Shown here in pieces: positions 17,027 to 59,649 of a DNA stretch of 64,000 nt. A program made the position numbers and the translations under genes. How positions within the stretch are numbered: the stretch's first letter is position 1; each line of letters starts with the position of its first letter. Source of the stretch: Artemia franciscana (lineage: Eukaryota; Arthropoda; Branchiopoda; Anostraca; Artemiidae); the NCBI RefSeq assembly GCF_032884065.1, contig NW_027063596.1, forward strand, positions 1,116,001-1,180,000, written 5' to 3'. A model generated the notes under the pieces. That model did no database searches, was not told the DNA's origin, and saw only the letters and a list, made by a program, of their open reading frames with translations.

Positions 17027-17427
17027 TTATATTTCGTCAACCTCCAATATCCAAAATGCTAGTCCGTTTGGCAACCTGGGCCCTGGTTGATACCTGGGCC
17101 CAGAATTGGGAGACTCGTAACTATACATATTGTCGTAGCTGATAATTTTGGCACTATATTCTTTCTTTAAAAACGACATAAAATCTAAAGCCCGAATACC
17201 ATAAATCTCATCAGCACATACAAATTGTGGTGCATAGTTCATACCCAGGCCTGCGAAGGCCTGGGTAGAAGAGTGAAGGTTGGAGTTACGGTTGGATATA
17301 TTCAAATTGTGGCCAAACTTGAGCTGCAAAATATTGGATAGACGGACTCTCTGATCCTCCCTTAATCCATCTACGTAACATCTATAATCGAAAAGTGGAA
17401 TACTCTCAGCAACACGGATAAACATGC
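17027..17427 (-). CDS. Terminal exon of an unrecognised gene family, copy 1
   Basis: The exon begins after a 3' splice site (TTTTGTTATAG, AG at 17429-17428) and stays open to a stop at 17027, coding about 133 residues. It contains GMFIRVAES at the start, YVDGLREDQRVRL, FVCADEIYGI, the conserved block FMSFLKKEYSAKI and the end WILEVDEI. Copies at 40758-41089 and 59345-59649 share the splice position, the reading phase (phase 1) and these blocks. The first 25 bases match copy 2 at 18 positions by eye. Read from an upstream ATG at 17476 the frame would begin with a hydrophobic, signal-like stretch (TVYFLWCFVIGMFIRVA), but the match to the other copies starts exactly at the splice site, so I favour an internal start. 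Upstream exons were not found. Function unknown. Confidence 0.6.
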
Positions 17428-17479
17428 CTATAACAAAACACCATAAGAAATATACAGTTAGTTTTGACCGAAACATTGT

Positions 17480-17944
17480 CTAGTCAATAAAAAAAAGAGT
17501 TATAGTGCTTAAAATTTGAATATTTAGTAAGATTACTAAGTAACCATTGAACTGAACCGGGTCTAACTCGACTTACATTAACTATTTAGATGATTTAAAT
17601 TTTTAACATTCCTTGGAAATATGTACTATTTCATGCAACGTCTATGTTTAATTTATTAATACAGATACAGTTTGTTTGTTTATTTACTTTTTAAACTACG
17701 TGTTTATTTTTATTCTTAATTTTCCGATCTCTTTTCCCAAGCATAAGCATGTTATATTGTATAAAAAAAAAGCCTCTGAAGGTTTTGTCTTTGGAAAAAG
17801 AAAAGAAAAAATAACAAATGCTCAGTTGCTGAATTAAACTTAAATCCAAGAAACACACTAACAAAACCCTACAGTCTGAAGACAATGACATAAAACCAAA
17901 CTGAAAAAACGAAGTTATCTTAAAAATCAACATCTGTCTTCATA
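17480..17944. other. AT-rich intergenic or intronic sequence
   Basis: If 17027-17427 is a terminal exon, this lies in its upstream intron. No exon is recognisable here. Confidence 0.35.
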
Positions 17945-18310
17945 AAATAGCTATAGATAGCGCAACAGCGCTGGCTATGTAAAGTGATGGGAGCACAATG
18001 TATTTTTTTTTCATAAAGACACCTCGTATTGAAGGAATTGTCGCAGAAACTTGAGAAGGAGCTTGAAAATTACCAAATGAAGGTTGGAAGAGCCTTTTTT
18101 AGAGTCAAAAGTGATTAGAGGGCCACCAGACCCGAGCCATCCCATGCATTCCCCAAACATATTCAATCAAATTTTTAAAATAGCAATTTTGTTAACATAG
18201 TCCAGTAATTAAGTTTCTGAGGACACCAGCCCCCCACAATCCTCAGGGCAAGGGCTGTAAGTTATGTAATTCGCCCATTATATACATATAGTATTCCTCA
18301 ACCGGAGAGA
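17945..18310 (+). repeat. Family B repeat, one unit
   Basis: Diagnostic order: AGCGCAACAGCGCTGGCTA, TATTGAAGGAATTGTCG, GAGTCAAAAGTGATTAGAGG, CATCCCATGCATTCCCCAAA, CAATTTTGTTAACATAGTCC, then CCTCAGGGCAAGGGCTGTAA. The same order recurs at 43.8-45.8, 47.5-49.7, 60.5-62.2 and 63.6 kb. A family D array follows directly. Confidence 0.7.
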
Positions 18311-19640
18311 AAACATGTTTGACAGTGAACGTTCGATAAGACTTCTAGAAAATTCCGAAGTATGTAACTGAATCAATACTGAATCAAAAGAATTCAGTGT
18401 TGAACTGAAAAAATTCAGTGTTGAACTAAATCAAAAGACGTTAGGTGCATAAAGGTTGTCAAAAAGGCATAACTCAGAAATGACTCAAGATATTAAGTTG
18501 GAACTTTCAAGGAGCGATAAAGAGGATGATCAACTGACCAAAAGGGCAATATTGCACGCTACCAATACTACTACTGTTGTTACTACAACTACTGCTTCTG
18601 CTGTGGCTACTACTAAAGATGAGGATAATAACACGAAAATTAGAGGAAATTTTGAGGAGAAAGTTGAATAAAAATAAAATCATCCTATATACTTTCAGTT
18701 TGTCAAAAGGGCGTATCAGCAATATCATAGGAACAGCTTACCGTATCAAAATGAAACCTCTACAGTATCATGAGTCGGATGTTAAACTGACCAAACATGA
18801 ATACGCGCATACTGCTATTGCTATTAACACTACTGCTACTACTCCAATAGTGGTACCTATAGTCCAACTACTTCTACTGCTACAACTACAACTAATACTT
18901 TTACCACTCAGACATTACGACTACTACTGCTATTACTGTTAAAGCAAAATCTTTAGGAAATGTTAAGGGGGAGCTGTTAAAGCAAAATCTTTAGGATATA
19001 TTCAAGGGGGAGTCAAACTAACCTGAAATCAAAACAGATATTACAGGTATTAGAAAGGCATATTGGCAACTTTTTAGTAACATCTTCTTGCATTAGGCTG
19101 AAACTTCCAGTCCTTGATGAAGAGGGAAGTTCAAGTGATCAAAAAGCAAATATGCACAGCCTACTTCTGCAACTACCACCAGTGCTACTGATGTTAGTAC
19201 AACTACTAATCCGAAGGTAAATTATGAAATTCACCGGTTGTTTTACCTATAATATTTGTTATTACGAAAGAGGATATGTTTGAACTTTGGAGTTCAGGAA
19301 GGCCAGGGGCATTGAGGTGATTCTTCCAAAGAATGTTGCGGGGAGCGTTGAATTAAATTAAAACACTTGATGTACATACAGGATGTAAAAGGGCGTATCT
19401 CAGGGACCCAGGGTATGAAGTTGGAACTTCCAGGAAATGATAAGGGGGATGATCAATTTACCAAAAGACGATATTCACACGCTATTTCTGTTCCTACTAC
19501 TACTGCTACTACTTTCGTGATTATTATAGTTATGGCTGTTGCTACTATAACTACTGAAACCAAAATCAACTGTCAAAAATACTTAACTGAAAACAAAATA
19601 TATTTGAGGTGTTTTCTCTTTTGTTCACTTTAACACATCA
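18311..19640 (+). repeat. Family D array, ACT/TAC-rich units of about 350-450 bases
   Basis: Each unit has GTTGTCAAAAAGGCATAAC or a close variant, AAGTTGGAACTTTCAAGGA, GATGATCAACTGACCAAAAG, then a run of TACTACTACTG-type triplets. Units begin near 18456, 18700, 19060 and 19370. Triplet runs create long open frames of Thr/Leu-rich peptide, which I take as artefact. Confidence 0.7.
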
Positions 19641-21406
19641 TTAAGATTCACGATTACAATCATTAAGACTCTCAGGAATGAATACCACTCTTTATTTGAA
19701 TTGAATTACTCCTTATTTTAGTTGCTGCTCAATTATAAAGCCATTAAAGATTCTTCAAGTTATGGAAGTAAGAATACTTGGAGATTTTGTACATCGACTT
19801 TAAAAACTTGAAAATGTATTAGAAACAAAAGCGATATACATTTTCCCTAAATTTATTAGATTTAAACATATGTAAATAATTAGTATTTCCAAATGGCATT
19901 TTCAAATATAAAACCATAATAATTATTTCTACAAGAAACCTCTGCTGATTCTGCCCCCCTCGTTCAGGTCGTCAGCAGTTTATAACATAGTATAACAATT
20001 CCTTTTGTAAGTTCTGAAAGGTCCAATACCAACACCTTTAATTTTCGACAAATTGAAGTTGATTTCAAAAAATTTTTTTAATTATCCATAATATATAAAG
20101 AAGGACATAGTAAAGATTGTCAATTGATGACGGAATCTTTTAAATTTTAAAATATATTATATTTTTCCGAAGGTATCTATTAAATTTTGTGTCCCGGTTT
20201 TGAGATTCCCTCCCACGCCCATCCTGCCCAAAATTTCCTTGCTTCTTACGATTTATTTTAGTATCATTTTTACTATTATTATGACGAGATACATTTTTTT
20301 TATATTTCGCACTATGTGTCAACCCCAATGTTACAAGCTTTGCTCTCCGTTGAGAACTAATGTTTTTTTTGTATCTTTGAATTATTAATAAAACAGTTAA
20401 ACAGTTACAGTTAAAATATTTCTTGTTGGGAAGAGACATTAGTGACTGTCAAATTTCTTTTCATCACTATTTGAAAGACAAAATTTTAGTCAATATCTGT
20501 GTTTTGATTGCATTTGACTTCATTATTACTATTTGCATTTATCCTATTACAATTTGCATTTAACTTAACTATTAACTATTACATTTAACTTTAACTATAA
20601 GGCATTGGGTCATAAAAAAATTTCTAGTTATAATTTACAACCAACGAATCAATCTATATATTTTGATGAGACCATAATTTGAATTGACGGAGCCGTAAAT
20701 GACTCACCAACTGCTATCATTTGCATTTGAAACAAATGGATTTAAAAGAAGAAAAATTTGATGAATGTTTACGACACAGTAGGCTAATGAAGCTAAAATA
20801 AACTACAGCGGTGTTTAATTTGAAAAACAAAACAGAATTATATTTCAAATAACTTTTTTTTGTGATTAAATTATTTCTAATTATCTAAATTTAGAAGTTC
20901 TTTCCCAAAGCAACGTGAAAACCCATGCCTTTGTGTGCCTTTTTTAAATTTTAGCATGCTATTAGTTTTTTTATCCTGATTTTAAACCAGTAAAAACAAC
21001 AAAACAAGTTTCTGAATTTTTCATTTCATTTTGTCTATTTACTCGAAATCAGCTTTAATTTCATACTTTTTTTATAATTATATTTTCTTATTTGGGTCAA
21101 AATCTGATATTTCAAAGTTTTAGCTTCTTAATTTATGTTTTCAATTTACACATAAATAAAGCTTAACCACTGTGAATGAATGAATAAATAAATAAACTGA
21201 ATCTAAAGATTATAATAGTTTAAAATGAATTATAAACGCTATAAACTTCCAAAATAAGAATAAGTAATTTAATCTAGTGCTTTTAGATCGTAACTTTTAC
21301 TTTAATTTTATGATAAAAGACGATACTCCAGAATTGTGAAACAGAAAAAATAAAACGATTCAAATTAAGGTTTAAACACCAAATAATATTTATATAGGCT
21401 GTATAC
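19641..21406. other. AT-rich sequence, likely intron of the minus-strand gene at 21.4 kb
   Basis: No motif-bearing open frame is visible. It follows the donor site of the minus-strand exon at 21407-21554, so at least its right part is probably intron. Confidence 0.4.
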
Positions 21407-21554
21407 CTGAATCCTTCTTGTCTTTCGTTTGCACCTCAATCTGAGATTGTAGCTTTACAAGTTCCTGTTGTTGCCTTTCTGCAAATGAGCACATTAGGCC
21501 TAAATGATGACTCGTCGATTCTTTTTGATGTTTCTCAACTATATGTTGCGTCCC
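21407..21554 (-). CDS. Internal host exon, about 49 codons, coiled-coil-like
   Basis: On the minus strand an acceptor (CTTGCTTTTAG) precedes a 148-base open segment that ends at a donor (TTCAG then GTATAC). Read in the one fully open frame it gives GTQHIVEKHQKESTSHHLGL, then MCSFAERQQQELVKLQSQIE, then VQTKDKKDS. The second half is Gln/Glu/Lys-rich with heptad-like spacing (LVKLQSQI), suggesting a short helix. Codon use is more balanced and GC-richer than the surrounding DNA, and it lies outside all repeats. The parent gene was not identified; neighbouring exons are probably far away because introns here are long. Confidence 0.6.
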
Positions 21555-22722
<1,168 letters not shown>

Positions 22723-23859
22723 AACACACATATTCAGATAAATAAACACAGAAAGTCAGAGAAGGAGACAAGTGAATATTAAATCAAGCACATAGGCACA
22801 GAGAAAGAGACGCGATAGCGACCCTCAGAGAGGGGAGGTGAATTGTACGAAAAATAACCATGGTAATAGCAAGCTGATAAAAAAAATCATCCAGTGATTC
22901 TACTTTGATATTTTATTAGCATCTTCAATTTAGATGAAGTCAGTCACTTCAAGTTTACCTGAAAGTTTTGATTTTCCAAATTTCGTCATTGAGAATCAAA
23001 AAGGAATTTTCATTTGAAATCTAAAAAAAATGAATTTTTTGAAGTGGGTGCACCTCCTCCCCCTGGCCCTTGTCTGTGCTACCAATCATGAGTTCAAACC
23101 AGAACCTACGGGCTTAGGTAAATTTAAAGTTCTTATACATTGCCCTGCTGAGCCTATTTTGGGCATCCATTTTCTATAAGCAATTGGTGTAATAAGGAGG
23201 GTTGTTACTTTAAGGGCTCTTGAAGGATATTGAAGAAAATTTACAAATTAAGCGACTATATGCAGGCTACATTATGGATTTTGGTCGGGGATTGCCCGTA
23301 GACTCTTTTAGAAGTAAAGGGGCATAATTCAGAAAATTGTACGGGAAGCAATACTAAGATAATAAAATGTCATCAATGGGTATTACCTTTTTGAGGAATA
23401 CGGAATTCAAGTAGGCTCTTCAAAATACCTTCCCAAGAGACCAATAAGGTATCAATATACCTTCAGCCCTACCAAAAAGAAGATACTATAATGTTCTAAA
23501 AAAATTTGAAAAAATTCTAAAACGCTTACTTATATGATTCTTTAAAGCTCTTTCAATGTTCTTTTGATTAAATGGATTTAATAGCAAAGGGTGTCGGCCA
23601 AGAATTGGCGCCGTTGAGAAGGAAACATGTTAAGAACACAATTTTGTGTGTTTCCCATGCTTATTTTTGGTTTCTTGATTTTGTTAGTAGGGTATTTATT
23701 CAATTTGAGAGTACATGGGCTGGAAGAAGAGTGAGACATGACTAAATAAACTGGAAATATATAAATTGGTCTATATACTTGCAAACTAGTGGGAGGAGAT
23801 GGTGGAAATATAGTGGTTATGCATTTTAAATGTGGTAGCTTACTGTTTTCTGCATCATG
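22723..23859. other. Unassigned sequence between (GA)n and a duplicated block
   Basis: A family A/B-like scrap (GGTGCACCTCCTCCCCCTGG) occurs near 23046. No coding evidence. Confidence 0.35.
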
Positions 23860-25200
23860 ATTGCAGCAGTAACTGCAATAGCGAGTCCATATTAACCAAA
23901 ACTTGATAAATGTGTTTTGTGAAAAAAACTTCTTAGGGAGAAAAAATTGCCATTTGACACTGTATCAGGAATGGTAACTATCGTTTTGTTTACTCTTAAA
24001 GTAAAAATTCATTGCAAAACAGATTTATGGGGATTTTGAAAATTGTTTCGAATAAAAATAATAAGTGCACCATTAGCATTAACATAGTCAATAACCTAAT
24101 ATAGGATACTTATAGTCCTCCAACTTGAACACTTTTTGCATAAGTATCCCTGATGTCTGCTTTTTTCTACAACGGGAGGAGGGGCCACAACATCAAAGAC
24201 ATGTTTAATTGCCCATTCAAACAAAAATTAAGTTTTCTAGTGCCCTTATTAAGTAACCGAAAAGGTCGGACGGCAGCTTGTCCCCTTTCCCTCAAAGTCA
24301 TCTGATCAAAATTGTGAGATATCAATTGTGTTCAACATAATTCAAAAGTCAAGTAGCTATGATTTTGGTGACTATATGACCCTCCAAAGTCCCTGAGGAA
24401 AGGGTTGTAACATCGAATCAGAGGTATCGATAACGCGTGTTGGTATCGGGGATATCTGTCTTAGGCGTTTTATTTTTCAGTCATGATTTTGTACTCCTCT
24501 ATCGTGATTGCAGCAGTAGCGGCAATCATGGTTGCAGAAATAGAGTCAAACTAGTAGAGAGCAAACCAAAGATCATAGTAACTGAAAGTGGAAAAGTTTG
24601 TTTTAAGAAAAAGTGCATAATGAGAAAAAATTACCGTCTGACATTAATTCAGGAATTGTAACTATAGCTTCGGCTAATCTTAAAAGTAGAAGCGTATTGC
24701 AAAAAAATTATTATGATTTTGCAAAACAGCCTTAACCCCTCAGAAATGGCATCGGATCAAAATGGAAATAGCACAATTCCAATCAGTATGGTCAAAAACC
24801 TTTTACAGGGTAACTAGAGTCCCCGACCATGAACAACAAAGAAAATCACTTCTTGCATGGGAATACTAATTTGTTCTTTTTTTTTGTTTTTTAACTGGTG
24901 TAGCGGGTTACCAGACACCTGAAAGAGATATTTAATGGCTCTTGCAAAAAGAAAATTAAAATTGATTATTCCTTTTTTCAAGTGACAAAATATTGGAGGG
25001 TAGCTAGCCAACCTCAATCTCCTGTAAAAAGCCCTTTTCACCTCATCATGTCCAATCAATAACCCTTTTTTCGTCAGCTGAAACGTCCAATAAATTCTGT
25101 TGGTGATGATTCGACCGTCCGTTGCCCTTGGGAAATAGGCAGTAAGTTTTGCGATTAAGGTCCTAAAAATGTCACTCAATTACTAGAGCTTGTTCCCCCT
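23860..25200 (+). repeat. Direct repeat of about 640-base period with family A/B module
   Basis: A block at about 23861-24060 (ATGATTGCAGCAGTAACTGC, then GAGAAAAAATTGCC, then TCAGGAATGGTAACTAT) recurs at about 24503-24730 with the same order. Between them is a module shared by families A and B (TTTCTAGTGCCCTTATTAAG, TCATCTGATCAAAATTGTG, CCTGAGGAAAGGGTTGTAAC). A second module trace lies near 24980-25010. Confidence 0.55.
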
Positions 25201-25213
25201 TACCCCAAAGTCG

Positions 25214-25300
25214 ATTATTAGGTTACTCAGATTGCTAGAGCTCGTAGTTTGGTCGGTAGAGCGGTGGAGTTGGAATCAGAACGGTAAGTCACTTGAGTAC
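25214..25300 (+). other. tRNA-like sequence, possible SINE head or tRNA pseudogene
   Basis: GTTTGGTCGGTAGAGCGG resembles a tRNA D-arm / box A, and it is followed at tRNA-like spacing by GTTGGAATCAGAACGG and a weak box-B-like stretch (TTGAGTACAATC). The box B is degenerate and I cannot close a full cloverleaf, so a working tRNA is unlikely. Confidence 0.3.
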
Positions 25301-26030
25301 AATCAGTACTGAAATAGCATTCATTCCGTGAACACCTATCTGTATGCTCAAAGTTACCAGTGAGAAAAACCGGTTTCTTGATATAGTCTAACTTGCATAA
25401 TTGGATTAGTATATCTGGATTGGACATAGTTCATTATAAATTTGGTCGTCAATACGGAGCATTTACAATCCATTCTTTGTAAGAAAGGGTTTAAATAGCC
25501 CCCCTATAAACATCATTTAGTGTCAGAGGATAATAACTTATTGGATATTTTGCATTGAATTGAAATAGCTTGACTGGTAATACTACATGAATTTGACTTT
25601 GAACGAGTAACAGCAGAATCCGGGTACCTACATAAAATGTGTGATGAAATGAATTATAGTGTTCAAGATTAATAATTTCCTTATGTCTCGTCATTTGCAT
25701 GGCAAAGTGAGGTAGGGAAAGAGAACTGAATGAAGAGGGGAAAATACAAAAGGAGCAATAGCTTGTATAAGCCCCTGAATTAAGAAGTTGTGACTAAGGA
25801 TGTGTTTTTTGATGTGACCAAACTTGGTTGTTTTGGCCTATAGTTTCGGATGCGATTATATTTGGTTTTCTCGGCTTATAGTTTCTGAGTTCCTGGATTA
25901 GTCTTTGTGCTATATAGTGGTGTTAGCCGTGCCCTTGATTGGGGACTAATGCATTGAATGTAGGCAATGGCATGGATAATAATCTGACACTTTTTTCCGG
26001 TAAGATTGTTTCGTATATTTCTACATAAAT
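25301..26030. other. Sequence upstream of LINE-2, probably including its 5' UTR
   Basis: No ORF with a motif. The part from about 25750 could be the 5' UTR of the LINE. The boundary cannot be placed without another copy. Confidence 0.35.
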
Positions 26031-26900
26031 ATGGGGAAAAGAAAGAAGCAGAAAAGAACTGAAAATGCATCAAGTGGTCTAAATTCAGTGTTTTCGAAAG
26101 CTAATGATGAGTTATCTTTAAAATCTTTGGCTGATAATTTCACTCAGATGTTAGAAATTGTAAAAGATAATAAGAAGGTTTTGGAAGATAATAAGAAGGT
26201 TTTGGAGTCAATTGATGGTAGATTAAAAACTTTGGAATGCCGTATTTCAACAGTGGAATCTGGACATACAAATTTAAAAACAGAAGTTAATCGTGTTGAA
26301 GCTGAAGTTACTGGTGTGAAAAGCGAAATTGATGAACTCAAGAAACATCTCTGTGTTGTCTCGGAAGAGGCTCGTTTCTTCAGAGATTCTACATCTAGTT
26401 TAACAAACCGCCTAATGTCCCTTGAATATAGATCTAATGACAGCAACCTAATTGTGTGGAATGTTCCGTGTGAAAGCCAAAATGAAGCTAAAGTTATTTT
26501 TGAAAAAATTTGTGAGGACGGTCTGCAGATGTCTGAAGTACCGAAGTTCTCTATTGTGATGGTAAAGAAGGAGAAAAAATTTTTTAAAGTGAATGTTCGG
26601 TCATCTGATGTTAAGGTAGATATATTAAAAAGAGGTAAACGGCTGAAAGGCAAGTCAGTAGATAATCACATTAACATTCATTTGAGTGATGATGCACCTA
26701 TTTCTATTCGTGTTGCTAGGAAAAAGTTATTTGCAATGAAGGATAAATTGACTGCACTGGGTATATCGTCTTGGGTTTCAAATTCCGTTCCGCCAGTTAT
26801 TCGTGTCGAAAGAGCAAATGGAGTGAAAGCTGTTTATCAATGTGACCAATTAATTCCCGAAATAAGCCAACCAATGTGTTTAGGAGGTGTTCCACAGTGA
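26031..26900 (+). CDS. LINE ORF1: coiled-coil nucleic-acid-binding protein, 289 aa
   Basis: A basic N-terminus (MGKRKKQKRTENASS) is followed by a long predicted coiled coil at about residues 25-130 (repeats such as DNKKVLEDNKKVLESIDGRL and VNRVEAEVTGVKSEIDELK), then a folded C-terminal half with SNLIVWNVPCE, a KVNVRSSDVKVDILK block and RVARKKLFAMKDKLTALG. That layout is common to ORF1 proteins of L1-like and CR1-like elements, which form trimers or multimers on element RNA and act as chaperones. The ATG (context AAATATGG) is the first in frame. No zinc knuckles, unlike the ORF1 of the other LINE. Confidence 0.8.
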   Translation: MGKRKKQKRTENASSGLNSVFSKANDELSLKSLADNFTQMLEIVKDNKKVLEDNKKVLESIDGRLKTLECRISTVESGHTNLKTEVNRVEAEVTGVKSEIDELKKHLCVVSEEARFFRDSTSSLTNRLMSLEYRSNDSNLIVWNVPCESQNEAKVIFEKICEDGLQMSEVPKFSIVMVKKEKKFFKVNVRSSDVKVDILKRGKRLKGKSVDNHINIHLSDDAPISIRVARKKLFAMKDKLTALGISSWVSNSVPPVIRVERANGVKAVYQCDQLIPEISQPMCLGGVPQ

Positions 26901-27445
26901 AATTATAATTATGTTGTATGTCCATGTAAATGTTTTTTTTTTGTTTTTGTTTTGTGTTTTTTTTCTTTTTTCTTTTTCCCTTTGCTTATATTTTTTTCTT
27001 TTAAATGTATGTTTGTAGATGTTGTTTTTGTTGTCAAGATTAATTTATGTCAAAGAGAAAAGTAAATAATTTCCCTTTTTTCCCCCCTTTTAGTGTGAGT
27101 GTGTGGTGCATTTGTGTGTGTATATTGTGTAGGTATCCGGTAAATAAATATTGAGAATTATGTTAGTTTGCAACTCATTCCTTCCTTGGCCGATATTGGA
27201 AAGGAAAAGTATTGCTTGTATCTTTTTTCTGTTTGTATATTTTCTTAATCTATTTTCTTTTAATTCACTTATTGCTTGTGTTAAGGATAGTTATTTCAGT
27301 CATATTATTGTTGGTTATATTTATTTCCGTTTTTTAAAGGAAGTTATTAAGGGCTCTTTTAACTTTCATTCGTCCCGGGATTTACTGAGAAGAATAATAT
27401 TGGATAGTTATGATGATTTTTTCTCACTTGACCAGTACCGTTTAA

Positions 27446-30400
27446 ATGATTTTGAAAATGGTTGTAGATTCTGATAGATTGCGTCCACTTGAGAATAGTC
27501 CACTTAATTTGGCCCATTTGGAGATAATAGATGAAAGTAGAGGGATTGATGATTTTGTTGTAGAGGAAAGTAAAATAGCAGTACGCTATATTAGCCCGGT
27601 TGATATTTCTGAATCGATGCCTAATGATTCTCTTACGGTTTTCCACTTGAATTGTCGGGGACTGCAAAGCAGTGTAACATATTTAAATGAACTATGTATG
27701 TTTTCTGGAATTCAAATATTAGCTCTAACTGAAACTTGGTTACAGAATCATAATTCTAGTTTATTAGAAATAGGTAATTATCGATTGTGTCTTAAGAATA
27801 GGGAGACTCGTCAGCATGGTGGACTGGGTGCTTACATTAGAAAAGACTTGCTAGCTATAGAAAGAGATGATTTAAGGGTTAATAGAGAAATGGTATTTGA
27901 GAGTTTGGTATTAGAGGTTAGCAAGAAATCCAAGGTGTTTTATTTGGTTGTTGTTTATAGACCTCCGTCGAGCAATATTAATGAATTTTTTATGTTACTA
28001 GAAGAACAGTTGGACATGATTAGGAGTAGAAACTTACCTATATTTGTGTGTGGTGATTTCAATATTGACCTAATGAATCTGTTTATTAATACAGAAGTTA
28101 GCCAGTTTTTAAATATTATGCTGAGTTATGGGTTGAAGCCTACGATTACAGTCCCAACTAGGGTTACTATGAATTCAGCATCGTTGATTGATAATATTTT
28201 TGCTAATGTCAGTTACTATAATGCAAGTGTGATAATAAATGAAGTATCTGACCATTTTGGGATATTTTTGAGTGTTCAAAATTTTTTTAGTAAAGGTACT
28301 AGGCTTAACTCAAATTCACAAAATAGATATAAAAAAGTGATCATTGATAATAATGTGCTCATTCTTTATAAAGTAAAGTTAGAGAAATGTAATTTTGAAT
28401 TTTTAAATAGTAATGAACTAGATATTAATGCTAAGTTTCAAAACTGGTATTCACTTATAAATAGTTTATTGATTGATTGTAGTATTTGTAAAAATGCAAC
28501 TCGTCGTAGAGAAACTCCAAAGAAACCCTGGATCACCCAAGCTCTTTTAAAGGCTATTATTAGAAGAAGATATTTGTTCAAAATGTGTGCGGCTAGTAAT
28601 AGTGTAAGTGATAAAACAGAATACAAGATTTATAGTAACCAGCTAAATGCACTACTTCGTAAAGCCAAAGCTGATTACTATCGTAATAAATTTAAATCTT
28701 GTGAAGGTAACCCTAGAAAAACATGGCAAATTATAAAATCCGTCGTAAGTCCTAATAATGATGGTATATTTCCTGACGGTATACATAATGATAGTACAAC
28801 TGCTGATAGAATGTGCCGTCATTTTGCTAATGTGGGAAAGGATTTGGTCCAAAGTATAGTTATTTCTGAGCATGAAGGTAGTTTTAAGAAATATTTATCG
28901 AATGCAAGTGATGTTTCGGCGTATTTGAAGCCAATCAACGCTTCTGAGCTTTCTGAAACATTGAAAAATTTAAAAATTGGAGCTTCAGGCTCTGATTTTG
29001 TAACAGTTAAAACTTTAAAGTATATTTACCCTGTTATTTCCGGTCATTTAGTGTATTTATTTAATGAATGTTTAAGGACTGGGGTGTTTCCAAGTTGTTT
29101 TAAAATTGCAAAAGTTATTCCTGTCTATAAAGGTGGAGATAAAAATGTACTAGGAAATTATAGGCCCATTTCTTTATTACCAGTAGTATCTAGATTGTTT
29201 GAGAAATTGATAGTTAAAAGAATGGTTGAATTTTTGGAGAGTAAATCATTTTTTAATCCAAATCAATTTGGTTTTCGGAAGGGTTTATCTACTGAGCATG
29301 CTGTTTTATTTTTGACAACTTTTGTGAATGATGCGTTGGATAATGGTATGAAAGTCGCTTCTGTTTTTCTTGATATTGTAAAAGCTTTTGACTGCGTTGA
29401 CCATTTTATACTCATTGCCAAATTAGAAAATTACGGTTTTAGAGGACCATTTCTTGAATTACTGTCCTCGTTTTTAAAAGAAAGAACTCAATATGTACAA
29501 CTAGGGGATAATGTTTCTTCAGTCAGTAGTGTTAAATTTGGAGTACCTCAAGGATCTGTTCTTGGTCCCCTGTTATTTTTAATTTTTATAAATGATTTAT
29601 GTAGAGCTTTTAATATGATTTCGTATGATCTTGACATTGGATGTGACGGGGAAAAAGTAATTGTCCCCAGCTTTGCGGATGACACTCATATAACTGTGGC
29701 TGCACGAACAGGAATTCAGCTGTTGAGTCGTATTAGTTCTTGTCTGGAGTTTGTACACAATTGGATGAAGCTTAATAAGCTAAATTTGAATTATAGTAAA
29801 TCTTGCTTTTTATTGTATGGTAGGAGCTCAAATTATTACCCTTGGATAGACAGACTTAATATTGCTGATATGGGTATTCTAAGAATGAATTGTACAAAAT
29901 ATCTAGGAGTTTTAATTGATGAATGTCTCAGCTTTAGAGAACATATAGATTATATTAGTCTTAAACTCGCTAGGAATGTTGGCATTTTAAGAAAGTTGCA
30001 GTATATTTTCCCAAGAGATATTTTAAGAACAATGTATTATTCCTTAATTCATCCTTATCTGCTATATTGTTGCAATGTTTGGGGTAGTATATTTCCTTCT
30101 CATCTCGATCGTGTTCGAGTTTTGCAGAATAAAGCGCTTCGAGTGATATGTGGTGTAGGTTTTAAAGACTCGGTACAAAAGAGGTATATAGATTGCAAAA
30201 TCTTGCCTTTAGCAGGACTTATTATTTTTTATCGAAGCCTGTTTATATATAAATATTTTCAAAATTGTTTACCAATATGTTTTAAAAGTATGTTTGAATT
30301 AGGAAGTGATATTCATACACATTCTACGAGACAGTCCGATATAATTCGTCGTCCGCTTACTATTACTCGTAGATCTCAATTCTCTATTCGGCATCTAGGA

Positions 30401-30511
30401 CCCCATGCATGGAATTGTTTACCTACGACTTTGAGAAACTTGGATAGCTTTCTTGAATTTCGGCGGGAATTAAAGCTATTTTGCCTTAATATTTATGGTT
30501 TTGATAGTTGA
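27446..30511 (+). CDS. LINE ORF2: endonuclease / reverse transcriptase, 1021 aa
   Basis: Endonuclease motifs of the EEP fold: FHLNCRGL (res 66-73), LTETWL (94-99), YRPPSSNI (171-178), GDFNID (203-208), SLIDNIF (246-252) and SDHFGIF (268-274). The linker includes KKPWITQALLKAIIRRR. The reverse transcriptase has KVIPVYKGGDK, NYRPISLLPVVSRLFEKLI, NQFGFRKGLSTEHAV, motif A FLDIVKAFDCVDH (about 640), FGVPQGSVLGPLLFLIFIND (about 697-716) and catalytic FADD (about 743; Phe in place of the commoner Tyr). A thumb-like end (RRPLTITRRSQFSIRHLGP, AWNCLPTTLRNLDSF) closes the protein. The true start could be a later ATG (Met5 or Met58), since conservation begins near residue 60. Confidence 0.9.
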   Translation: MILKMVVDSDRLRPLENSPLNLAHLEIIDESRGIDDFVVEESKIAVRYISPVDISESMPNDSLTVFHLNCRGLQSSVTYLNELCMFSGIQILALTETWLQNHNSSLLEIGNYRLCLKNRETRQHGGLGAYIRKDLLAIERDDLRVNREMVFESLVLEVSKKSKVFYLVVVYRPPSSNINEFFMLLEEQLDMIRSRNLPIFVCGDFNIDLMNLFINTEVSQFLNIMLSYGLKPTITVPTRVTMNSASLIDNIFANVSYYNASVIINEVSDHFGIFLSVQNFFSKGTRLNSNSQNRYKKVIIDNNVLILYKVKLEKCNFEFLNSNELDINAKFQNWYSLINSLLIDCSICKNATRRRETPKKPWITQALLKAIIRRRYLFKMCAASNSVSDKTEYKIYSNQLNALLRKAKADYYRNKFKSCEGNPRKTWQIIKSVVSPNNDGIFPDGIHNDSTTADRMCRHFANVGKDLVQSIVISEHEGSFKKYLSNASDVSAYLKPINASELSETLKNLKIGASGSDFVTVKTLKYIYPVISGHLVYLFNECLRTGVFPSCFKIAKVIPVYKGGDKNVLGNYRPISLLPVVSRLFEKLIVKRMVEFLESKSFFNPNQFGFRKGLSTEHAVLFLTTFVNDALDNGMKVASVFLDIVKAFDCVDHFILIAKLENYGFRGPFLELLSSFLKERTQYVQLGDNVSSVSSVKFGVPQGSVLGPLLFLIFINDLCRAFNMISYDLDIGCDGEKVIVPSFADDTHITVAARTGIQLLSRISSCLEFVHNWMKLNKLNLNYSKSCFLLYGRSSNYYPWIDRLNIADMGILRMNCTKYLGVLIDECLSFREHIDYISLKLARNVGILRKLQYIFPRDILRTMYYSLIHPYLLYCCNVWGSIFPSHLDRVRVLQNKALRVICGVGFKDSVQKRYIDCKILPLAGLIIFYRSLFIYKYFQNCLPICFKSMFELGSDIHTHSTRQSDIIRRPLTITRRSQFSIRHLGPHAWNCLPTTLRNLDSFLEFRRELKLFCLNIYGFDS

Positions 30512-30807: not shown

Positions 30808-30829
30808 TCTCTCTCTCTCTCTCTCTCTC
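30808..30829 (+). repeat. (CT)n 3' tail of LINE-2
   Basis: Eleven CT/TC dinucleotides directly follow AATAAACCCA. The sequence changes abruptly after AAGTGTCC, taken as flanking DNA. Confidence 0.8.
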
Positions 30830-34420: not shown

Positions 34421-34499
34421 CCTCAGTAATATTGCCATAATGCTTTTAAGCGGCCAGTAAGCCCTTCAAATCCCAGTCTCGGCACTTTTTAAACTAGTT

Positions 34500-40757: not shown

Positions 40758-41089
40758 GTATGCTTTTCCGTGTTAAGGAGTGTCCCTGTGGTCCATCTTA
40801 CGCGAGGTGTAACTTAGAAGGATTAGATCAATACTGTGTAGAAAAAGTGTACCACTGTTTGCAAGAAAAAGTTTTTTTGCAAATTCCAGTCTCAAATCCA
40901 GTCGGTACCTTCATAATTTGTCAACTCCATTGACAACCATTGAAGTTTATGAGATTTATGGAATTGGAGTCTATAGCTTGGGAATTTATGTCTTTTTTAA
41001 GAAAAGAGTACGGAGCCAAAATTCTTGCTCACAGTTTTGATTCTGAAAAAGATATGGAAATTTGAACCTTGGAGGTTGACGAACTATAA
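40758..41089 (+). pseudogene. Terminal exon of the unrecognised gene family, copy 2 (broken)
   Basis: A strong acceptor (CTTTTTTTTTATTACAG, AG at 40756-40757) precedes the segment. In phase 1 it starts GMLFRVKECPCGPSYARCNL, then EGLDQYCVEKVYHCLQEKV. A VYEIYGI block, the FMSFLRKEYGAKILAHSF block and the end TLEVDEL with TAA at 41087-41089 match copy 1 (DEIYGI, FMSFLKKEYSAKI, ILEVDEI). Two defects are visible: the frame shifts between VYEIYGI and FMSFLRKEY (about 40915-40985), and a TGA stands where copy 1 has Trp before LEVDE (about 41062). The splice site and phase are retained, so decay is recent or the sequence carries an assembly error. Cys content is higher than in copy 1. Confidence 0.6.
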
Positions 41090-47464: not shown

Positions 47465-47489
47465 TTATTGTTCAACTAGTCCAAAAATC

Positions 47490-51217: not shown

Positions 51218-51620
51218 TAAAAGGAAATTTTCAATTTACTATAACTATTCAAGAGTTGAATTAGTTATTTCATTACTAGTTAACGTGCTAGGTTTCGGCA
51301 GAGGGCAACAGAGCTTTTTAGTGTTCTCTATTTTCTTTATTTTAGGGTCTCCATTAAAAGGAAAGTTGTAATTTATTACACCTATTAATTAGTTGCATTA
51401 GTTATTCAATGATTAGTTTACATGCTAGGTTAGTTATTTAATGATTAGTTTACATGCTAGGTTTTGGCAGAGGACAACTGAGCTTGCATGTGTTAACTTT
51501 TCCCTTAACTTTACAGTCTAAATTAAAATTAAAGTTGCAATTTACTGCATCTATTTATTAGTTGCATTAATTAATTATTAGATAATCATGTTAGGTTTTG
51601 ATAGAGAACAACAGATAGGA
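51218..51620 (+). repeat. Triplicated sequence, units of about 140-170 bases
   Basis: Each unit has AAGTTG(C/T)AATTTA, TTAGTTGCATTAGTTATT and GTGCTAGGTTTCGGCAGAGG or a close variant; starts near 51220, 51358 and 51527. The middle unit contains an extra internal copy of GATTAGTTTACATGCTAGGT (51410 and 51447). Confidence 0.8.
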
Positions 51621-52495
51621 GAACGCCCTACAAAAATGTAGAGTACCACCATATGAAGCACGGACCAAGGGAGACCTTGTCCCTGGGGGTCTGATAATAG
51701 AAACTTGGGCACCCTCACCCTGGGCTATAAATACAGATGGAGGAGGAAAAAGGCCCCTCAAATATACACTCAACAGGGCCAATTGGCGTGTCCAAACGTC
51801 CAATGAGTTACAAACTTTCTCCCAGCAATACTTTAAATTGTAAGGTGATGCAGAACACCATCATGGAAGGATCCTCTATGGGACGACAACTGCAGCAGGG
51901 CATAATATCCAGATCTGTGTACAAAGGCATCTGCAAAGGGCTTCCTCGACCTTTTTGCGATGCCTCCACGACTGGGGATTTCGGGGTCAACTTCTCCCAC
52001 TGGTGGAGTGGTGTCCTTCGAGAAAATTAAAACCTAGTAAACAACACAGCATTCGCACGGGATTTTGTTTGGATTGGATATATCTTAATTGATATTTCTT
52101 CTGACCTTGGTCTGTTGCGATCGGTGTTTTCTGCCTCACAAACATCTTCCTAATGAATTTATCTACTATGAGTTGCATCCACGTAGTAGCATAATATTTG
52201 TAGGCATGAATATATAATGGGTCCGAGGTAATAGGCTTGGGATCGTTAGTGTAGGATTTCAACTCTTGTTGATGGAAGAGCATCGCCGTGGTGAAAACCA
52301 TGTTGTGGGCAATATGGGCCCAGGATTGCACAAAACCTCAAACCAAACTGGAGGTTCCAGTAACTTCTTGCTATCTGGTTCTAAGCCAGCTTGGGCGCTT
52401 TAATGTAGACTTGAGAAAAAAGGTTGATCCTCTTCCTGCACTGGTGTCGGGGATAAATGCTTTTCCTGAGGTCAAAATAATTTTAATGATTTAAA
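51621..52495. other. Unclassified coding-like region, possibly a LINE linker fossil
   Basis: GC content and codon texture are higher than in the flanks. On the plus strand about 51710-51830 reads WAPSPWAINTDGGGKRPL and KYTLNRANWRVQTSNELQTF, like the region after a LINE endonuclease. On the minus strand 51987-52331 is open for 114 codons with no motif I know. Two overlapping readings mean neither is secure. Confidence 0.3.
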
Positions 52496-54040
52496 GATCA
52501 TGGAAATTGCAACTTGGAATGTTACGACGGTTTGAACTGGACTTAATAGGAGTTTCAGAAATTCATATCCCAGTGGTAGGAAGCATAAAATTAGGTAATA
52601 TAGAATTTGTTTACTCAGACATTGGGTGAACTGGCAGGGAGAAGGGCTAATAATGAATAAGGAAGCTTCTAAGTCTTGTTTGGGCTGGGAAGGGAAAAAT
52701 AACAGAATACTAATTGCTCATTTTATTACTAAAAGGTTAAAGGTATCAGTTATAGTAGTTATGCCACTGTTGAACCAACTGACGGAGAAACTAGGGACTC
52801 AAATAACTTTTACTTGCACTTACAGGAGCAAAGAGACAGGGCACTAGGTGAAAATATGGTGTTTTACTAGGAATTTTAACGCCCAGGCTGGTAGAAACAG
52901 GCATAGATAATATCCTAGCCAAGGTAAATTTGGTGTAGGAAAATAAAACAGGAATGACAACAAACTTTTACAGTTTTGTAGGTCTAACGACCTTGTTATA
53001 ACCAATACGTTGTTTTGTCATAAAACGGCCCATACGTTGACATGGTATTTCCGTGATCGTAAGACAAAAAACCTTATTGATTATATTATTGCAAACCGAA
53101 GACTAGCAGGATCAATACAAGACACTAGGGTATATAGAAGTGCTATTCTTGATGTTAAAAGTAAAGATCACAATCTAGTAGCGTCTAAACTTAATTTAAA
53201 GCTGAAATTTTGGAAAGGTATCTACCTCCCAGGAAGTTATAATGTTAGTAGACACCATGATGAAAATTTGAGAGAAACTTTCGAGGAACAGTTGTATTTT
53301 AAACTTAAGAGCTTAAAGTTTGATAATGTGGAATATGGCTGGCATAATTTTAGAAAAACAATTTGTGCAGTTGCTAATGGTGTTGTAGGGAAGAAAGCTA
53401 AGACTGCATCTAGGAATATTAGTGAAAAAGGTTTATGTTTAATTGAGAATAAAAGGAGTTTGCACAATATTTAGCTGAGTGATAGATCATATGAAAACAA
53501 AAGGAATGTAAATAAATTGGAGAAAGCATTAAAATATGAACTAAGGAGGTATGAGGCCATGGATAAAATGGCAGAGGGTCTAGAAGATGCAGCCAGATGG
53601 CCTAATAGTAAAATATTATACTGGCATGTTAATCAATTGAAAAGGAGTTGTCATTCTGGACTAGTCCCAGCTAAAGATAGGAATGGGGTATCAGTTAGTG
53701 ATAAGGAAAGAGTTAAAGAAATATAGGTGGAACATTTTGAGAATGTGCTAAGCCGAGGTACAGCGGCAGAAAAATAATAAGGCTCTAGGTGCTGGTAGTG
53801 TGATAAATGAGTTTCTTAAATATGGAGGATCTGAGGCTAGAAATGAGCTACTTAAGATTATGAATATGATTCTTGATAAGGGGGAAGCACCCATGGATTT
53901 TAGAAAAACCTTAAAAAAACAATGTATAAGAAAGGTGGCAAAACCTGATTACTTACGAATATTAGATGAAAGTGTGAGAAAATAAATGAATTTTTAGAGA
54001 TTTTGCGATTGAAAAAGGCGTAGGGAATAAGTTATCAGCA
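52496..54040 (+). mobile_element. RTE/BovB-like LINE fossil, endonuclease plus linker, RT core deleted
   Basis: The start MEIATWNVTTV (ATG at 52500) is the usual opening of RTE endonucleases. Later stretches are ELDLIGVSEIHIPV-like text, ITNTLFCHKTAHTLTW and KNLIDYIIANRRLAGSIQD (about 52995-53115), DVKSKDHNLVASKLNLKL (about 53150-53205), the linker KAKTASRNISEKGLCLIE, and VKEI plus HFENVLSR. RT begins with KGEAPMDFRKTL (about 53877) but then jumps to YLRILDESV and EFLEILRL-like text that lies just after the catalytic YADD in RTE. The palm is therefore deleted. Several frame changes and stops occur. The family matches the fragment at 13960-14600. Confidence 0.8.
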
Positions 54041-55419
54041 AGAAAACTTTAGAGCAAAGGTAAATTATGATTCAAAAGTTTAGAGTAAACTTCGTTGCTC
54101 ATTGTTTTTATTCTAATAAATGAGGAATTAAAGCCAAATACTACTCTATGTCTAGATCAAAAGGAGCTCTTACCTGAAACCAAAAAGCCGACTTCAGTAA
54201 AAATCAAATTTCTGCCCCATTATGGTGGAACGCTTCAGACCTAATCTTTTCGTTTTGTAGTGTCAATAGCAAAGCATTACATTTTAATAGTGAGTTGAGA
54301 TAATAAGAAACAATAACAAAGGAAATATATAAGAATCCCGTAGTAGTTGCTTATTATGCGTAACTTGAAAAAAAAAGATCAATAAACAAAATGATAGAAT
54401 GTATTTACCTTTTTAATTCAAATTTACAGGCAAGCCGAACTACAAAATATTAGTTTTTGTAAATAAATTTTAGGAAAACGTTTTATAACCCGGTCATTCA
54501 GCCAATAATCTTGCTAAGCCTTACCGCTAAAGATCTAGAAGCTCGAACTCAGTTCAATACATTTTTGTACTGAGCATCCTGTTGAAAACAACGGATTTTG
54601 GGAATTACCACTGAAGTATAAAAAAATATATGTATATAAAATACAATATTTAGTTGTAACAGCAATAGTTTTTAGTGATCTTCAGTAAAATAGTATATAC
54701 CGAAATATTTGCCCATGTTGTATATGTGACATGGGCCATAAAGTGGATTAGGCAGTGTTTCTCAGGGAAACTATGATCAAAATCAATTGGCTTATACAAG
54801 CTATACGATAGTATATCCTGGCTTAGAATAAGGTACATAAGGGCTTGGGATTGAATTCTAATTTTCAAAAAAAGTTGTTTAACAATTAATTGTTTTTTCG
54901 TTGTTTTTATACCGTATTGGCAAGCTATGTTGTGCAGATTGTATTTTATAATTATCTTTAAGTTATTTGTTTCCAAACTTTAGTTTTTAAGTTGTGCGTT
55001 TGGATTAAGGAACGTTTCAAGTTTTTCTTTTCTCAGATATTTAAGGAGACTGGGAAAAGGGCAAGCAGAAAGCATTGCACCAATATGTTGGACGAGTACA
55101 AATCTATTATCATTCTTTTGTGTTTGTATCAACTTTTTTGCGTTTTTACTATTTTGTGTTAGTTGTGCGTAAGAAATTCATTTTATTTAAAGTTAGAAAA
55201 ATAATCTTTAATTTTTCTTCTTTATTATTTGACAGTAGAACTTTCCTTATGAACTATTATATTTTTTTTTTATGTTTTTGGAAGTTGATTATGGAATGTT
55301 CATTGTTTTAGTTTAGATAGCGAATTGGAATATCATTAAAATATTCTAATAATAGAATTTCTCTTTAACTTAAAAGTTTTAAATCTAGTTTTGATTATTT
55401 CTTTGGACACAACCTTTCG
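54041..55419. other. Unassigned AT-rich sequence
   Basis: Open frames are short and lack motifs; no repeat shared with other parts of the window seen. Confidence 0.4.
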
Positions 55420-56232
55420 AAGTACCCCTTTGTGGGCGGCTAAGTAAAAAAAAGATTAGACCTAATTTTTTGTACCACTTTTTGCGTACACGGTGGTCTT
55501 ACTAGACAAAAAAGGTCTGATTCAACTGAAAATTGAAAGTTCCAGTTCATTTTTAAGAATCCAACAAATAGTATCCACAAAATAAACATTTCCCACAAAT
55601 AGTATTTTTATTCTAAATCACTTTAAAAAAGTGGTCAATTCCCGGAAAAATTTAAATTCTGTCAAATACAATCGATTTTATTTGATATAAGATCTTAACC
55701 AGTAGGCTCAGATCCCCTTCTCCATCTTAAATTTATTAGAAGTGCCTTCAGAAATTTCAAATAATTGTTATTTTTTTCTATCATATTATTAGTAACGAGA
55801 ACCTGACAACTTTACTACTCAGCCCCAGCAGAGCTGTGTGGCAGAAGCTGTTTATATTGATTTTAATTGCCACTTATTCTCTAACCCCAGACAATGTGAC
55901 ACTCTTCTCAATGTCCTGACGTCATCATGGGTTTGATGCAACTACAAAAGGCATAAACCAAAAAAATTGCATAACTTCATGTTCAAGGTCAATAGCTAGG
56001 AGTTGCTATGTATGTCTTATTGAAAAACTAATGGGAAGACAAAGGAAAGTAGTGTGTCTAGTTGGTTCGATCTAGCTGTTCCCAAGGCAAAATTCCTATG
56101 GTGGCAATCGCTTAGGATTGAAAATAATACTTGAAGAATTCAGCATTGAATTTTTACATAACCGCGTAGTAGTGATGTGAAAACGTCACCTTTGAGTTGA
56201 ATATTATGGCTGAAATTCAAAATATCATCTGC
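55420..56232. other. Family B scrap (about 55490-55570) and unassigned sequence
   Basis: ACGGTGGTCTTACTAGACAA and AATTGAAAGTTCCAGTTCAT with TTTTTAAGAATCCAA follow the family B order. The rest is unassigned. Confidence 0.4.
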
Positions 56233-56440
56233 CTAGCTGACAAGAGAAAAATTTATACTGGTGAGTATTCCATTAGACTGCGCATCAAGAATTCTGTTGT
56301 TGAAGAGTGAAGAGTAGAAAACGGCACCATAATTGGCGCTGTTTTCGTCGTCAACGGGAATATCCATAATAACGGAAGTGGGTGTATGGATAGAAGAGTA
56401 TTTCACTGGTGGACCTTCAGCTATAGATGACAAATGATGT
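56233..56440 (-). CDS. Possible host exon, about 66 codons, unrecognised
   Basis: An open minus-strand segment ending at a stop (56233-56235) reads EGPPVKYSSIHTPTSVIMDI, then PVDDENSANYGAVFYSSLF, then NNRILDAQSNGILTSINF. Amino-acid composition is balanced and the region is non-repetitive. No ATG begins the frame, so an upstream splice is needed; TTGTTTTAAG near 56456 is a weak acceptor. I do not recognise the protein. Confidence 0.35.
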
Positions 56441-57008
56441 ATTACGTGTTCTTAAAACAAGGATACATGTCACGGAGGCTTCTGATGTGTGATGGTTATA
56501 CCCAAAAATTTTCTACACGGAAAAAAAATATCAGCATGAAATAGAGAGTCAAACAATTATCATGTATGATGTATATCATATTCAGCTCGCATAAGACTCT
56601 CCTAATGCATCATCATTAATAAGACGTTTTATGACAAGGGAAAGAGCATGGGCACTGCCGAGACATAAGAGAAAGACAAATTCATATGGCGGAACATAAC
56701 ACTTGGTGTTCATATATTCAATAAAAACCCAGAATGTAACATTTGGTATTCCGATATTGAATAAAAAAATTTGAGCAGGCAGGTGGAACGACGATTATAG
56801 CGTTTAGACCGTACATTTTTCGGTTATAGAAACAAGAAAGTAAAGCTCCTTGGACTGCAATCATTTGCATAAAAAGAAAGATATGGTTTACCATCAGATC
56901 ACTGTCATGTAGAGAATTTTGTTTATCAGGGACAGGGTTTCTCATACTAGAAAATCTACAAAAAAAAACAAAACTGTGGAGAAGGCAACTAAAGAGAAAT
57001 GTGTTTAC

Positions 57009-57077
57009 CTTGACTTCATATTCAGGCTCAAGTGCAGCAGCTCGTACAGAAAATTCTACAAATTTCATGGATTTCAT
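57009..57077 (-). CDS. Possible short first coding exon
   Basis: On the minus strand, MKSMKFVEFSVRAAALEPEY and then EVK run from an ATG (57077) to a good donor (AAG then GTAAAC at 57008-57003). In-frame stops directly precede the ATG. About 570 bases further along the strand is the open segment at 56233-56440, so both could belong to one gene, but the phases of the best visible sites do not match. Confidence 0.25.
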
Positions 57078-57109
57078 TCGGAATCACTAATATTTTTAGT
57101 AGGCAGGTG

Positions 57110-58449
57110 AGTACTTGGAAGATCCTTTGAGAAATTTCTGTATATAAGTAATTTTGGGACTGAGAAGCTTGCTGAAGCATATATTCAACTATCAAGATAA
57201 TTTGAATCGATAGTTCTTTTGCAAAATCTCTTTAGGAAATAGCAAAATATAAAAAACTTAACCAGAACAATTTTGCTTAAAATGAAGCCATAGATGTTAC
57301 GAGCATTCAATTTTTTCAAGTTTCTACAAGGCTCGGAATACTTGACCTATGCCTAGTCATACCCCAGTGGAAAAGTTTGGAAGGTGCCGGTGCTTCTTTT
57401 GTACGTCGGACAATATAGTAATCCTTCGGAGTGCTTGAGAAATATCAAACAGCACATGTGTCTATTGGTTATTGTTTTAAGGGGTTCTCATTTGTAGCTG
57501 GAAAAGAAGAAAAACCTTTTGTAGGATAGAATTTGAAACAACTGGGAGTAAATCACATTTGATATTATTAAAGTCCCTGAAGGATTAGGTCCGGTGCTGT
57601 TTAAAGCTATAATGAGTGAGGTGATTGAAAAGAAGGATGAGGAAATTATAAAGATATTATGTGGTGGTCTCACAGTCGGAGATCAGAAACGTCGTAGACC
57701 ACTGAAACTTGAATATTCATAGAGAAGACTGCATGATTGAGGTTTGTAATAAGATTGGTTGGACGAATGTAAGTGTAACAGATATCCTTAGGCAGGATCT
57801 CTAAGAAGCCATGAAAATACAAGGGTAATTAGAAGCAGGTAATGACCATTCGTCAAATAAGTTACAGTTGGAATCTCCAATAATAATTCAACACTTATCT
57901 AGTTGATCAATCTAACAGAGGCAATACTTTAGCTGCTTAAACGCAGAAATAAACGAAAATTCTGATGAATCAATGTGGTAATTTTTCAGAAGATAAATAT
58001 TTACAGTAAAACACACTTCAACATCAAGAAAAGACAACAAAAAGCAAAATACTAGAACGAAACAAACCCATAACACAGCTGGCGATATCCACTCTTGAGC
58101 GATCTTTGGAAGCGGATCATTTTGCAAACATCAATTAAACCTCAAACTTAATATCAACTTTTAAAATGCATATGCTGTACATTGTCAGAAAATGTTCTTT
58201 CAAGCAAAGAATATCATTGTTCGATAACAAGTCTTTTATGGCAAGAAGTGTAACCAAAATTGAAATATCAATAGAATATTTTGTTCTATAAAATTTGATT
58301 GGATTTTGTTAGTTGACCCTTGTTTTTGGGCATTTTATGCTGTAATATATACGGCAGACAGCATGAAATTCAATGCAGAATATGACTTCAGAATTCAAAG
58401 ACACACTATTCGAGACACAATGTCCGTTTAATTTTGACCATAAAAACAT
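57110..58449. other. Unassigned sequence
   Basis: Coding-like text near 57560-57700 (KVPEGLGPVLFKAIMSEVIE) might be a decayed mobile-element linker, but no diagnostic motif is present. Confidence 0.3.
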
Positions 58450-58810
58450 CTTTTTTTAAGCACTAAAAAACTTTGGCGTGAAGAGTGAGCAGCAACACCC
58501 TTAATAAACATAGTATTTTTTTTACATTCGTTTTGTATCAAGTGATGTAAATTTTATTAACATTCTATGACATTTAGGGGATGTTTCCCCTTTTATCCTT
58601 TAATATGCTAATCTAAACTTAATAAAGCTTATATTTATAATAAGTTTTATGTTTTATATTAATAAAACTTAAATTTATATATTTTTAATTAACATAATAA
58701 GCCGATTCTTTTGATATATCTATTGGCATAAAAGTTACTTTTTTGGAGTTTTGGTTACTATTAAGGCTTGTTGCTTCTTATTTACAGTTCACTACTACGC
58801 ATTCTTTGAT
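58450..58810 (-). repeat. Family A interspersed repeat, copy 4 (minus, partial)
   Basis: TTTTATTAACATTCTATGAC, TTTAGGGGATGTTTCCCC, CGATTCTTTTGATATATCTA and TTTTTTGGAGTTTTGGTTAC match 13.27-13.47 kb in the same order and orientation. An AATAAAACTT-type expansion separates two parts. Confidence 0.7.
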
Positions 58811-59344
58811 GATGGCATGATGATGGGATTGCTGCTTTGATTACCTCTACCATTCGAAATACTACTAAAGTTTTTAACGCAAACAATATGTTATGAAACT
58901 GTGGCAAGCAATAGTAAGGATAATTGAAAAGTTGGAAAATGAAGTGGTCTAAAAGAAATAATTGAGGAATGAAATAAATCAATAGGGAAACAATTAATCA
59001 AAGAAGGAAAGCTATTTAAAAAGTAATAACTTAAAGTAAATGTTAAGTGAATATTGGTGGAAAATGTATTCATAAACGATATTATTTTACCTAAGGTAAA
59101 AGGTAAATCTTTCTTCCAGTTTATTATTCCCTCATGGATTTAGCGTTATTTCCGAGTTGCTGGGAACACAATAGATATTTCACGGTAATAGTGTTGAAAA
59201 ATTAGCAAAGTATCCTTAATAAAAGTGATTCAAGGTAAAAAATAGTTCCAAATCAAACTTGGAAAGATCCAAAGGACCCCACCCTCTATTTATCTTTGAA
59301 CCTCGTATGTTATTTCCTTTCATTCAAATTCATGTATTTTCTAG
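58811..59344. other. Upstream flank / putative intron of copy 3 exon
   Basis: AT-rich, ends in the acceptor TGTATTTTCTAG. No preceding exon recognised. Confidence 0.4.
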
Positions 59345-59649
59345 ATATCTACTTTGGTGTCTCCGGAACGTTTGATTCATGGAAGACTTATATTTATGGT
59401 CTAGACGTTATGTACCTTGATTCTGTCTTATATAGACTGGAAAGACTGGGGTTCACCAAATTATTGACGGTGATTGATGATAACACTTTCACGGTTATGA
59501 AGGGACCTTTTAAAATGATGTCATTCTTTAGTATTGAATTTGGAGCTGAAATTGTGACTCATGTCGTTGGAGAACAAACATTCAGGGGAACTAACATGAA
59601 TAACCATTCATATTGGACCTTAAAGGCTGATATTAAAAGGATGATATGA
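59345..59649 (+). CDS. Terminal exon of the unrecognised gene family, copy 3
   Basis: After an acceptor (AG at 59343-59344) a phase-1 frame runs about 101 codons to TGA at 59647-59649. It starts DIYFGVSGTFDSWKTYIYGL, then VMYLDSVLYRLERLGFTKLL, then TVIDDNTFTVMKGPF, and carries the block MMSFFSIEFGAEIVTH, followed by FRGTNMNNHSYWTLKADI near the end. The block aligns with FMSFLRKEYGAKILAH in copy 2 and the end (YWTLKADI) with FWILEVDE in copy 1. It is intact but more diverged than copies 1 and 2 are from each other, and lacks the Cys residues of copy 2. No ATG precedes in a plausible position, so upstream exons are required. Function unknown. Confidence 0.6.

Follow-up and report, generated by a model that had tools for sequence, protein, structure and literature searches.

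A 64,000-nucleotide window of Artemia franciscana DNA (C1010:1116001-1180000) holds three related coding exons of a family that occupies at least 36 places in the genome. The family includes decayed copies, shows an excess of exon divergence in two of five near-identical pairs, and varies in two loops, both in these pairs and in one of its three subfamilies. With moderate confidence, we favor the explanation that this is a lineage-expanded A. franciscana family diversifying in the two loops through birth-and-death duplication and diversifying selection, in response to a changing partner. The role of this diversification is probably recognition.

A reading of the window from its letters alone (here, the sequence-only reading) had proposed three diverged terminal exons, spaced about 20 kb apart, with the copy at 40.8 kb decaying. 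They are located as follows, each with its putative splice acceptor.

17427-17027, minus strand: copy 1, subfamily A, open exon of 132 amino acids (P0001) from the ATG at 17425, stop TAA at 17029-17027; acceptor TTATAG/GC, phase 1
40758-41089, plus strand: copy 2, decayed relative whose frame changes and is broken by internal stops; acceptor TTACAG/GT, phase 1
59345-59649, plus strand: copy 3, subfamily B, open exon of 100 amino acids (P0002) from 59347, stop TGA; acceptor TTCTAG/AT, phase 1

All three are related coding exons that follow an AG in phase 1, copy 1 on the strand opposite to that of copies 2 and 3, and the proposed coordinates hold; the spacing measures ~23 kb between copies 1 and 2 and ~18 kb between copies 2 and 3. 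Open frames are kept in copies 1 and 3, and the decay ascribed to copy 2 is plain from its frame changes and stops: its YGI and MSFL blocks sit in different frames, and a stop stands at the site of the WxLE tryptophan of the other copies. A relative of copy 2 at ~C10:1,975.4k is likewise broken. The acceptor, the stop, and poly(A)-like signals suggest that the exon ends the protein, i.e., that it is a terminal exon. The signal A(A/T)TAAA occurs 68 nt past the stop of copy 1; past that of copy 3 it occurs twice, at 108 and 158 nt. It was found within 300 nt in 9 of 13 copies checked, in AT-rich DNA where some may arise by chance.

Relationship among the copies is carried by profile comparisons. 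In a search of the window, a profile of seven copy-1-like exons (including copy 1) matched copy 2 with an expect value (E) of 5.4e-6, and copy 3 was absent from its list, which extended to E 10. When C988 was added to subfamily A and L034 to subfamily B, hhalign aligned the two groups with a probability of 94%, an E of 1.2e-7, and a score of 44.5, compared to 21.3 for the best of 100 column-shuffled decoys, which bears out the proposed paralogy. Without C988 and L034, the alignment of A and B was weaker (probability 63%, 17 columns). Copy 2 was matched by both subfamily profiles (E 3.9e-5 and 1.4e-4), and subfamily C holds a block, TALQLMSFFKEQYEAKIVA...WTLE, that joins A and B. As far as sequence comparison goes, the copy-1 and copy-3 subfamilies are linked via intermediates. 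A tree separated A plus C988 from B plus L034, with a long-branch warning, and was not relied on.

The genome searched comprised 1,270,528,402 bases in 6,468 contigs, and all family counts are lower bounds. Copy 1 as the query retrieved seven places (subfamily A), all of them open; copy 3 retrieved seven, including the weak L034 (subfamily B), six of them open; and C988 retrieved 23 rows with the E limit set at 10, of which 21 passed E <= 0.001 and correspond to 20 distinct places (subfamily C, 12 open). Together with copy 2 and its C10 relative, at least 36 places result from the whole-genome search that the sequence-only reading had called for, 25 open over nearly the whole exon and 11 broken or partial. 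In this scoring, L050 counts as broken or partial for an internal deletion, although its frame is open, and L032 counts as open despite TG in its acceptor. Several pairs are near-identical, and distinct members, merged by hand, may number ~27. Ten residues are invariant across ten aligned open copies. The family had been described as locally expanded; expansion and clustering are confirmed, but several clusters lie across the genome, so that the expansion is not only local. Clusters mix strands and hold several subfamilies each, e.g., at C10:1.94-2.07 Mb and C1010:0.68-1.18 Mb. At C10:30.6 Mb, an open A-type exon is followed 1.4 kb behind by a decayed C-type exon, and partial tandem copies of the 3' half of the exon lie downstream in L003-L005.

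Copy 1 itself lies in a stretch with a close counterpart.

1963-22563, unstranded: block collinear with C10:1,930,001-1,945,319, in five pieces of 94.8-98.1% identity with insertions between them; holds copy 1

This block is either an allelic haplotype or a recent duplication. C10:2,032,631-2,046,251 and C15:32,412,002-32,425,593, on different chromosomes, are 98.8% identical along 13.6 kb, and a copy at C3:45.43 Mb is 98.4-99.1% identical to these stretches over 3.2 kb; they represent either haplotigs that reference-guided scaffolding put in the wrong place or segmental duplications that arose recently. The report on a female A. franciscana assembly (1,270,721,445 bp, 6,486 scaffolds, longest 67,337,973 bp) describes purging of haplotigs, residual duplication with 5.9% duplicated BUSCOs, and scaffolding guided by A. 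sinica (PMC11492255). Considering this residual duplication and the A. sinica-guided scaffolding, near-identical pairs on different chromosomes may be alleles or misplaced haplotigs.

The near-identical copies on C10, C15, and C3 are also what a transposable-element or viral gene on a mobile unit could leave behind, and the best viral fold match is a baculovirus p38.7 protein (E 0.14). We regard such an origin as highly improbable. No transposon or viral family was among the Pfam matches of 10 members, nor did they contain a transposon domain, the sequence-only reading having raised similarity to a transposon open reading frame (ORF) as a ground for rejecting the family. One peptide pattern each was scanned against viral and prokaryotic contigs, and neither scan yielded a confirmed relative. 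The C10/C15 identity is collinear, as from haplotigs or segmental duplications, and few copies were found, though the counts are minima.

The exon encodes one complete predicted domain, from the first strand through to the stop. Since it begins at a putative phase-1 acceptor and continues to a stop, it needs an upstream exon, which in L004, L005, and subfamily B must also supply the start codon, since no ATG stands at the exon start. The acceptor is common to 24 of the 25 copies inspected, and the phase is common as well. A conserved upstream exon, anticipated as support by the sequence-only reading, did not emerge from the 1.8-25 kb upstream stretches compared: a filtered ORF comparison gave no candidate 5' exon common to more than two sources, and this filter discards ORFs with antisense or many matches, so that true upstream exons might drop out. 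No conserved local first exon was found within 1.5 kb upstream. Of the main alignments between units, those of copy 1 to c4 and c127 and of copy 3 to c29 reach ~0.8-0.9 kb upstream, and that of copy 2 to its C10 relative ends 70 bases upstream; downstream, the alignments extend up to ~3 kb. Scattered additional upstream pieces look like repeats. Two upstream candidates were rejected. A signal-peptide-like read-through upstream of copy 1 (MFRSKLTVYFLWCFV...) has its frame interrupted by stops in L003-L007, and a conserved block that precedes the subfamily B exons by 530-690 nt was taken on visual inspection for an interspersed repeat because its translation recurs in L039.

An arrangement in which one or a few genes use the copies as alternative terminal exons, with a shared 5' part spliced in cis or in trans to clustered variable exons, would account for the early upstream end of the alignments and their longer downstream reach, for the missing shared 5' candidate, and for the common phase and acceptor. 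We nevertheless consider it unlikely. Copies within clusters lie on both strands, and therefore cis splicing alone cannot serve all of them; upstream exons may sit past the stretches compared or have been filtered out; and none of the 16 genome places matched by the KCTD-type BTB_2 domain is close to the family.

The domain is predicted to adopt a beta-beta-alpha-beta-beta-alpha-beta-beta fold, like that of GFRP or the C-terminal domain of KCTD proteins. Several points weigh against this assignment. The models were built on two-sequence alignments, and in one modeling run four of five models had a predicted local distance difference test (pLDDT) score below 38. No Foldseek match passed E <= 0.001, and the top of its list was taken not by GFRP but by a chain of a trypanosome mitoribosome; a kinetoplastid protein stood level with KCTD rows, and eIF1 chains with both GFRP and KCTD rows. 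Among the weak viral fold matches, 38.7 kDa proteins of baculoviruses appear repeatedly (BFVD against model m0d07f224282c; best E 0.14, probability 0.89). Two variable loops were delimited by eye on the predicted strands of copy 1.

17198-17326, minus strand: first hypervariable loop of copy 1, predicted beta3-beta4 hairpin, ~residues 34-76
17060-17125, minus strand: second variable loop of copy 1, predicted beta5-beta6, ~residues 101-122

The first loop has low pLDDT at residues 44-74, with many changes and 13 gap codons relative to the C10 copy; the second has low pLDDT at 98-113, and its DNA is 86% identical to that copy. Short GC-rich inverted repeats lie within both loops (17060-17260, minus strand) and are a possible source of insertions and deletions.

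For part of the family, the fast evolution suggested by the sequence-only reading is supported by the exon excess in two pairs and by the loop trend in subfamily C. When the window was compared with C10 in bins of 200 bases spanning 14.7 to 22.5 kb, mismatch peaked in the middle of the copy 1 exon (15.5%, plus 39 gap bases); the remaining bins had 0-6.2% mismatch, save one short bin, at 19,200, where mismatch was 9.5% and gaps came to 126 bases. Among five near-identical pairs, L001/L002 and L006/L007 showed excess exon divergence. Their changes are chiefly nonsynonymous (36.3 to 4.7 and 29.8 to 4.2) and cluster in the two loops, and the exon gap totals amount to whole codons in both. Nine copies of subfamily C, read afterwards, followed the same trend (core, 0.67; first loop, 1.58; second loop, 1.02).

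Against diversifying selection stand a number of observations. Two bins at ~19.2-19.6 kb exceed the exon in gap bases, and the other three near-identical pairs (L004/L005, L029/L030, L030/L031) have no exon excess. The ratio of nonsynonymous to synonymous substitution rates (dN/dS) is 0.12 in L004/L005, and deeper ratios within A and B range from 0.37 to 1.09, indicating mostly net constraint. Neither L003/L004 nor L028/L029 has a proportion of nonsynonymous differences in the loops (pN) above that of synonymous ones (pS): in the former, loop pN is below pS, and in the latter, the loops show no excess over the core. A pooled test of nonsynonymous to synonymous changes in the two diverged pairs, picked post hoc, gave a modest p of 0.033. 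Moreover, the loop limits were set after looking, the loop alignments are uncertain, and gene conversion could explain some loop differences; no donor was found among the sequences compared, a subset of all copies.

These observations leave some, though limited, weight to an ordinary multigene family under relaxed constraint and without positive selection, in which the excess would come from gene conversion or indel-prone hairpin loops. The 11 of 36 places that are broken or partial are in line with it, as are the deeper dN/dS values mostly below 1, the three pairs without exon excess, and the GC-rich inverted repeats in the copy 1 loops. Conversely, 25 copies are still open, and the ten aligned ones retain their invariant residues; drift alone does not give exon divergence several-fold above that of introns and 3' flanks; and the gaps in the two diverged pairs add up to whole codons.

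In the explanation that we favor, a lineage-expanded family diversifying under selection, each exon would be joined by a phase-1 intron to a 5' exon and would close the protein, with these single-exon domains multiplying and dying in clusters by birth-and-death duplication. The beta3-beta4 and beta5-beta6 hairpin loops would vary strongly while the core is retained, positive or balancing selection would act on the two loops, and the loops would bind some partner that itself changes, for which a parasite, a rival, and a gamete or mating factor are candidates. A mechanism of this kind, with two loops diversifying on a conserved scaffold, fits the overall pattern of the data. It is rare for coding exons to diverge faster than the introns beside them, and such cases usually signal conflict or recognition. 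A more far-reaching version, which we find quite improbable, is a repertoire of dozens of interchangeable terminal exons on both strands, built on a GFRP-like scaffold with two variable loops, joined, possibly in trans, to a common 5' part, maintained in a polymorphic state by balancing selection, and serving immune or mate recognition. If expression and allele data agree with the favored explanation, the result would be an arthropod model that is easily crossed and hatched, together with a so far unexplored polymorphic family, built perhaps on a regulatory protein's fold, and a route to the partner that drives it.

Other features of the window include two elements of the long interspersed nuclear element (LINE) type with long open ORFs for endonuclease and reverse transcriptase, at 6493-10133 on the minus strand and 26004-30511 on the plus strand. 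The first looks like a recent insertion, because the C10 counterpart of this region lacks the stretch 6157-10776. At 5462-5929 on the plus strand lies a degenerate C2H2 zinc-finger-like open frame, with a weak Pfam match under the cut-off.

By sequence comparison, we could not match the family to any described family, in agreement with the sequence-only reading, which had recognized no named one. Pfam and PDB searches gave only weak matches, which we read as chance: TPR_TAF2_C (0.048), DUF6870 (0.17), and HTH_28 (0.26) in Pfam, and 4us5 (E 1.5), 7t2r (E 1.3), and the AI-designed TIM barrel 7mcd (E 0.0027 over 27 positions) in PDB. In the literature on Artemia gene families, selection, and hypervariability, of which few subscription papers were covered, no title concerned this exon family.

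The family shares no supported sequence similarity with GFRP and differs from it by longer loops in subfamily A and by its many diverging copies. GFRP itself forms a pentamer, to which GTP cyclohydrolase I and phenylalanine bind. Hmmscan of 10 members gave no match to the GFRP family PF06399, and PF06399 searched against the whole genome listed only C16:31804317-31804445 (22.1 bits against a cut-off of 25), which is not a family locus and is perhaps an exon of the true GFRP gene. The family profile placed GFRP 1251st of 1857 listed, amid shuffled decoys. Sequence homology to GFRP was rejected: the best of seven shuffle tests gave a z of 2.26, reached by 29 of 1000 shuffles, and the other six were unremarkable. 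In KCTD1, 8, 12, and 16, the C-terminal (H1) domain follows a BTB_2 (T1) domain, whereas here BTB_2 (PF02214) was found at 16 genome places at E <= 0.01, none of them near the family loci, in an exon-by-exon search among top-ranking candidates that a split or distant BTB could escape. Family profile A2 listed no KCTD chains in PDB at E up to 10. As an analogy only, abalone sperm lysin and the rodent ESP pheromones likewise combine duplication with rapid diversification (PMC9022041, PMC3477143).
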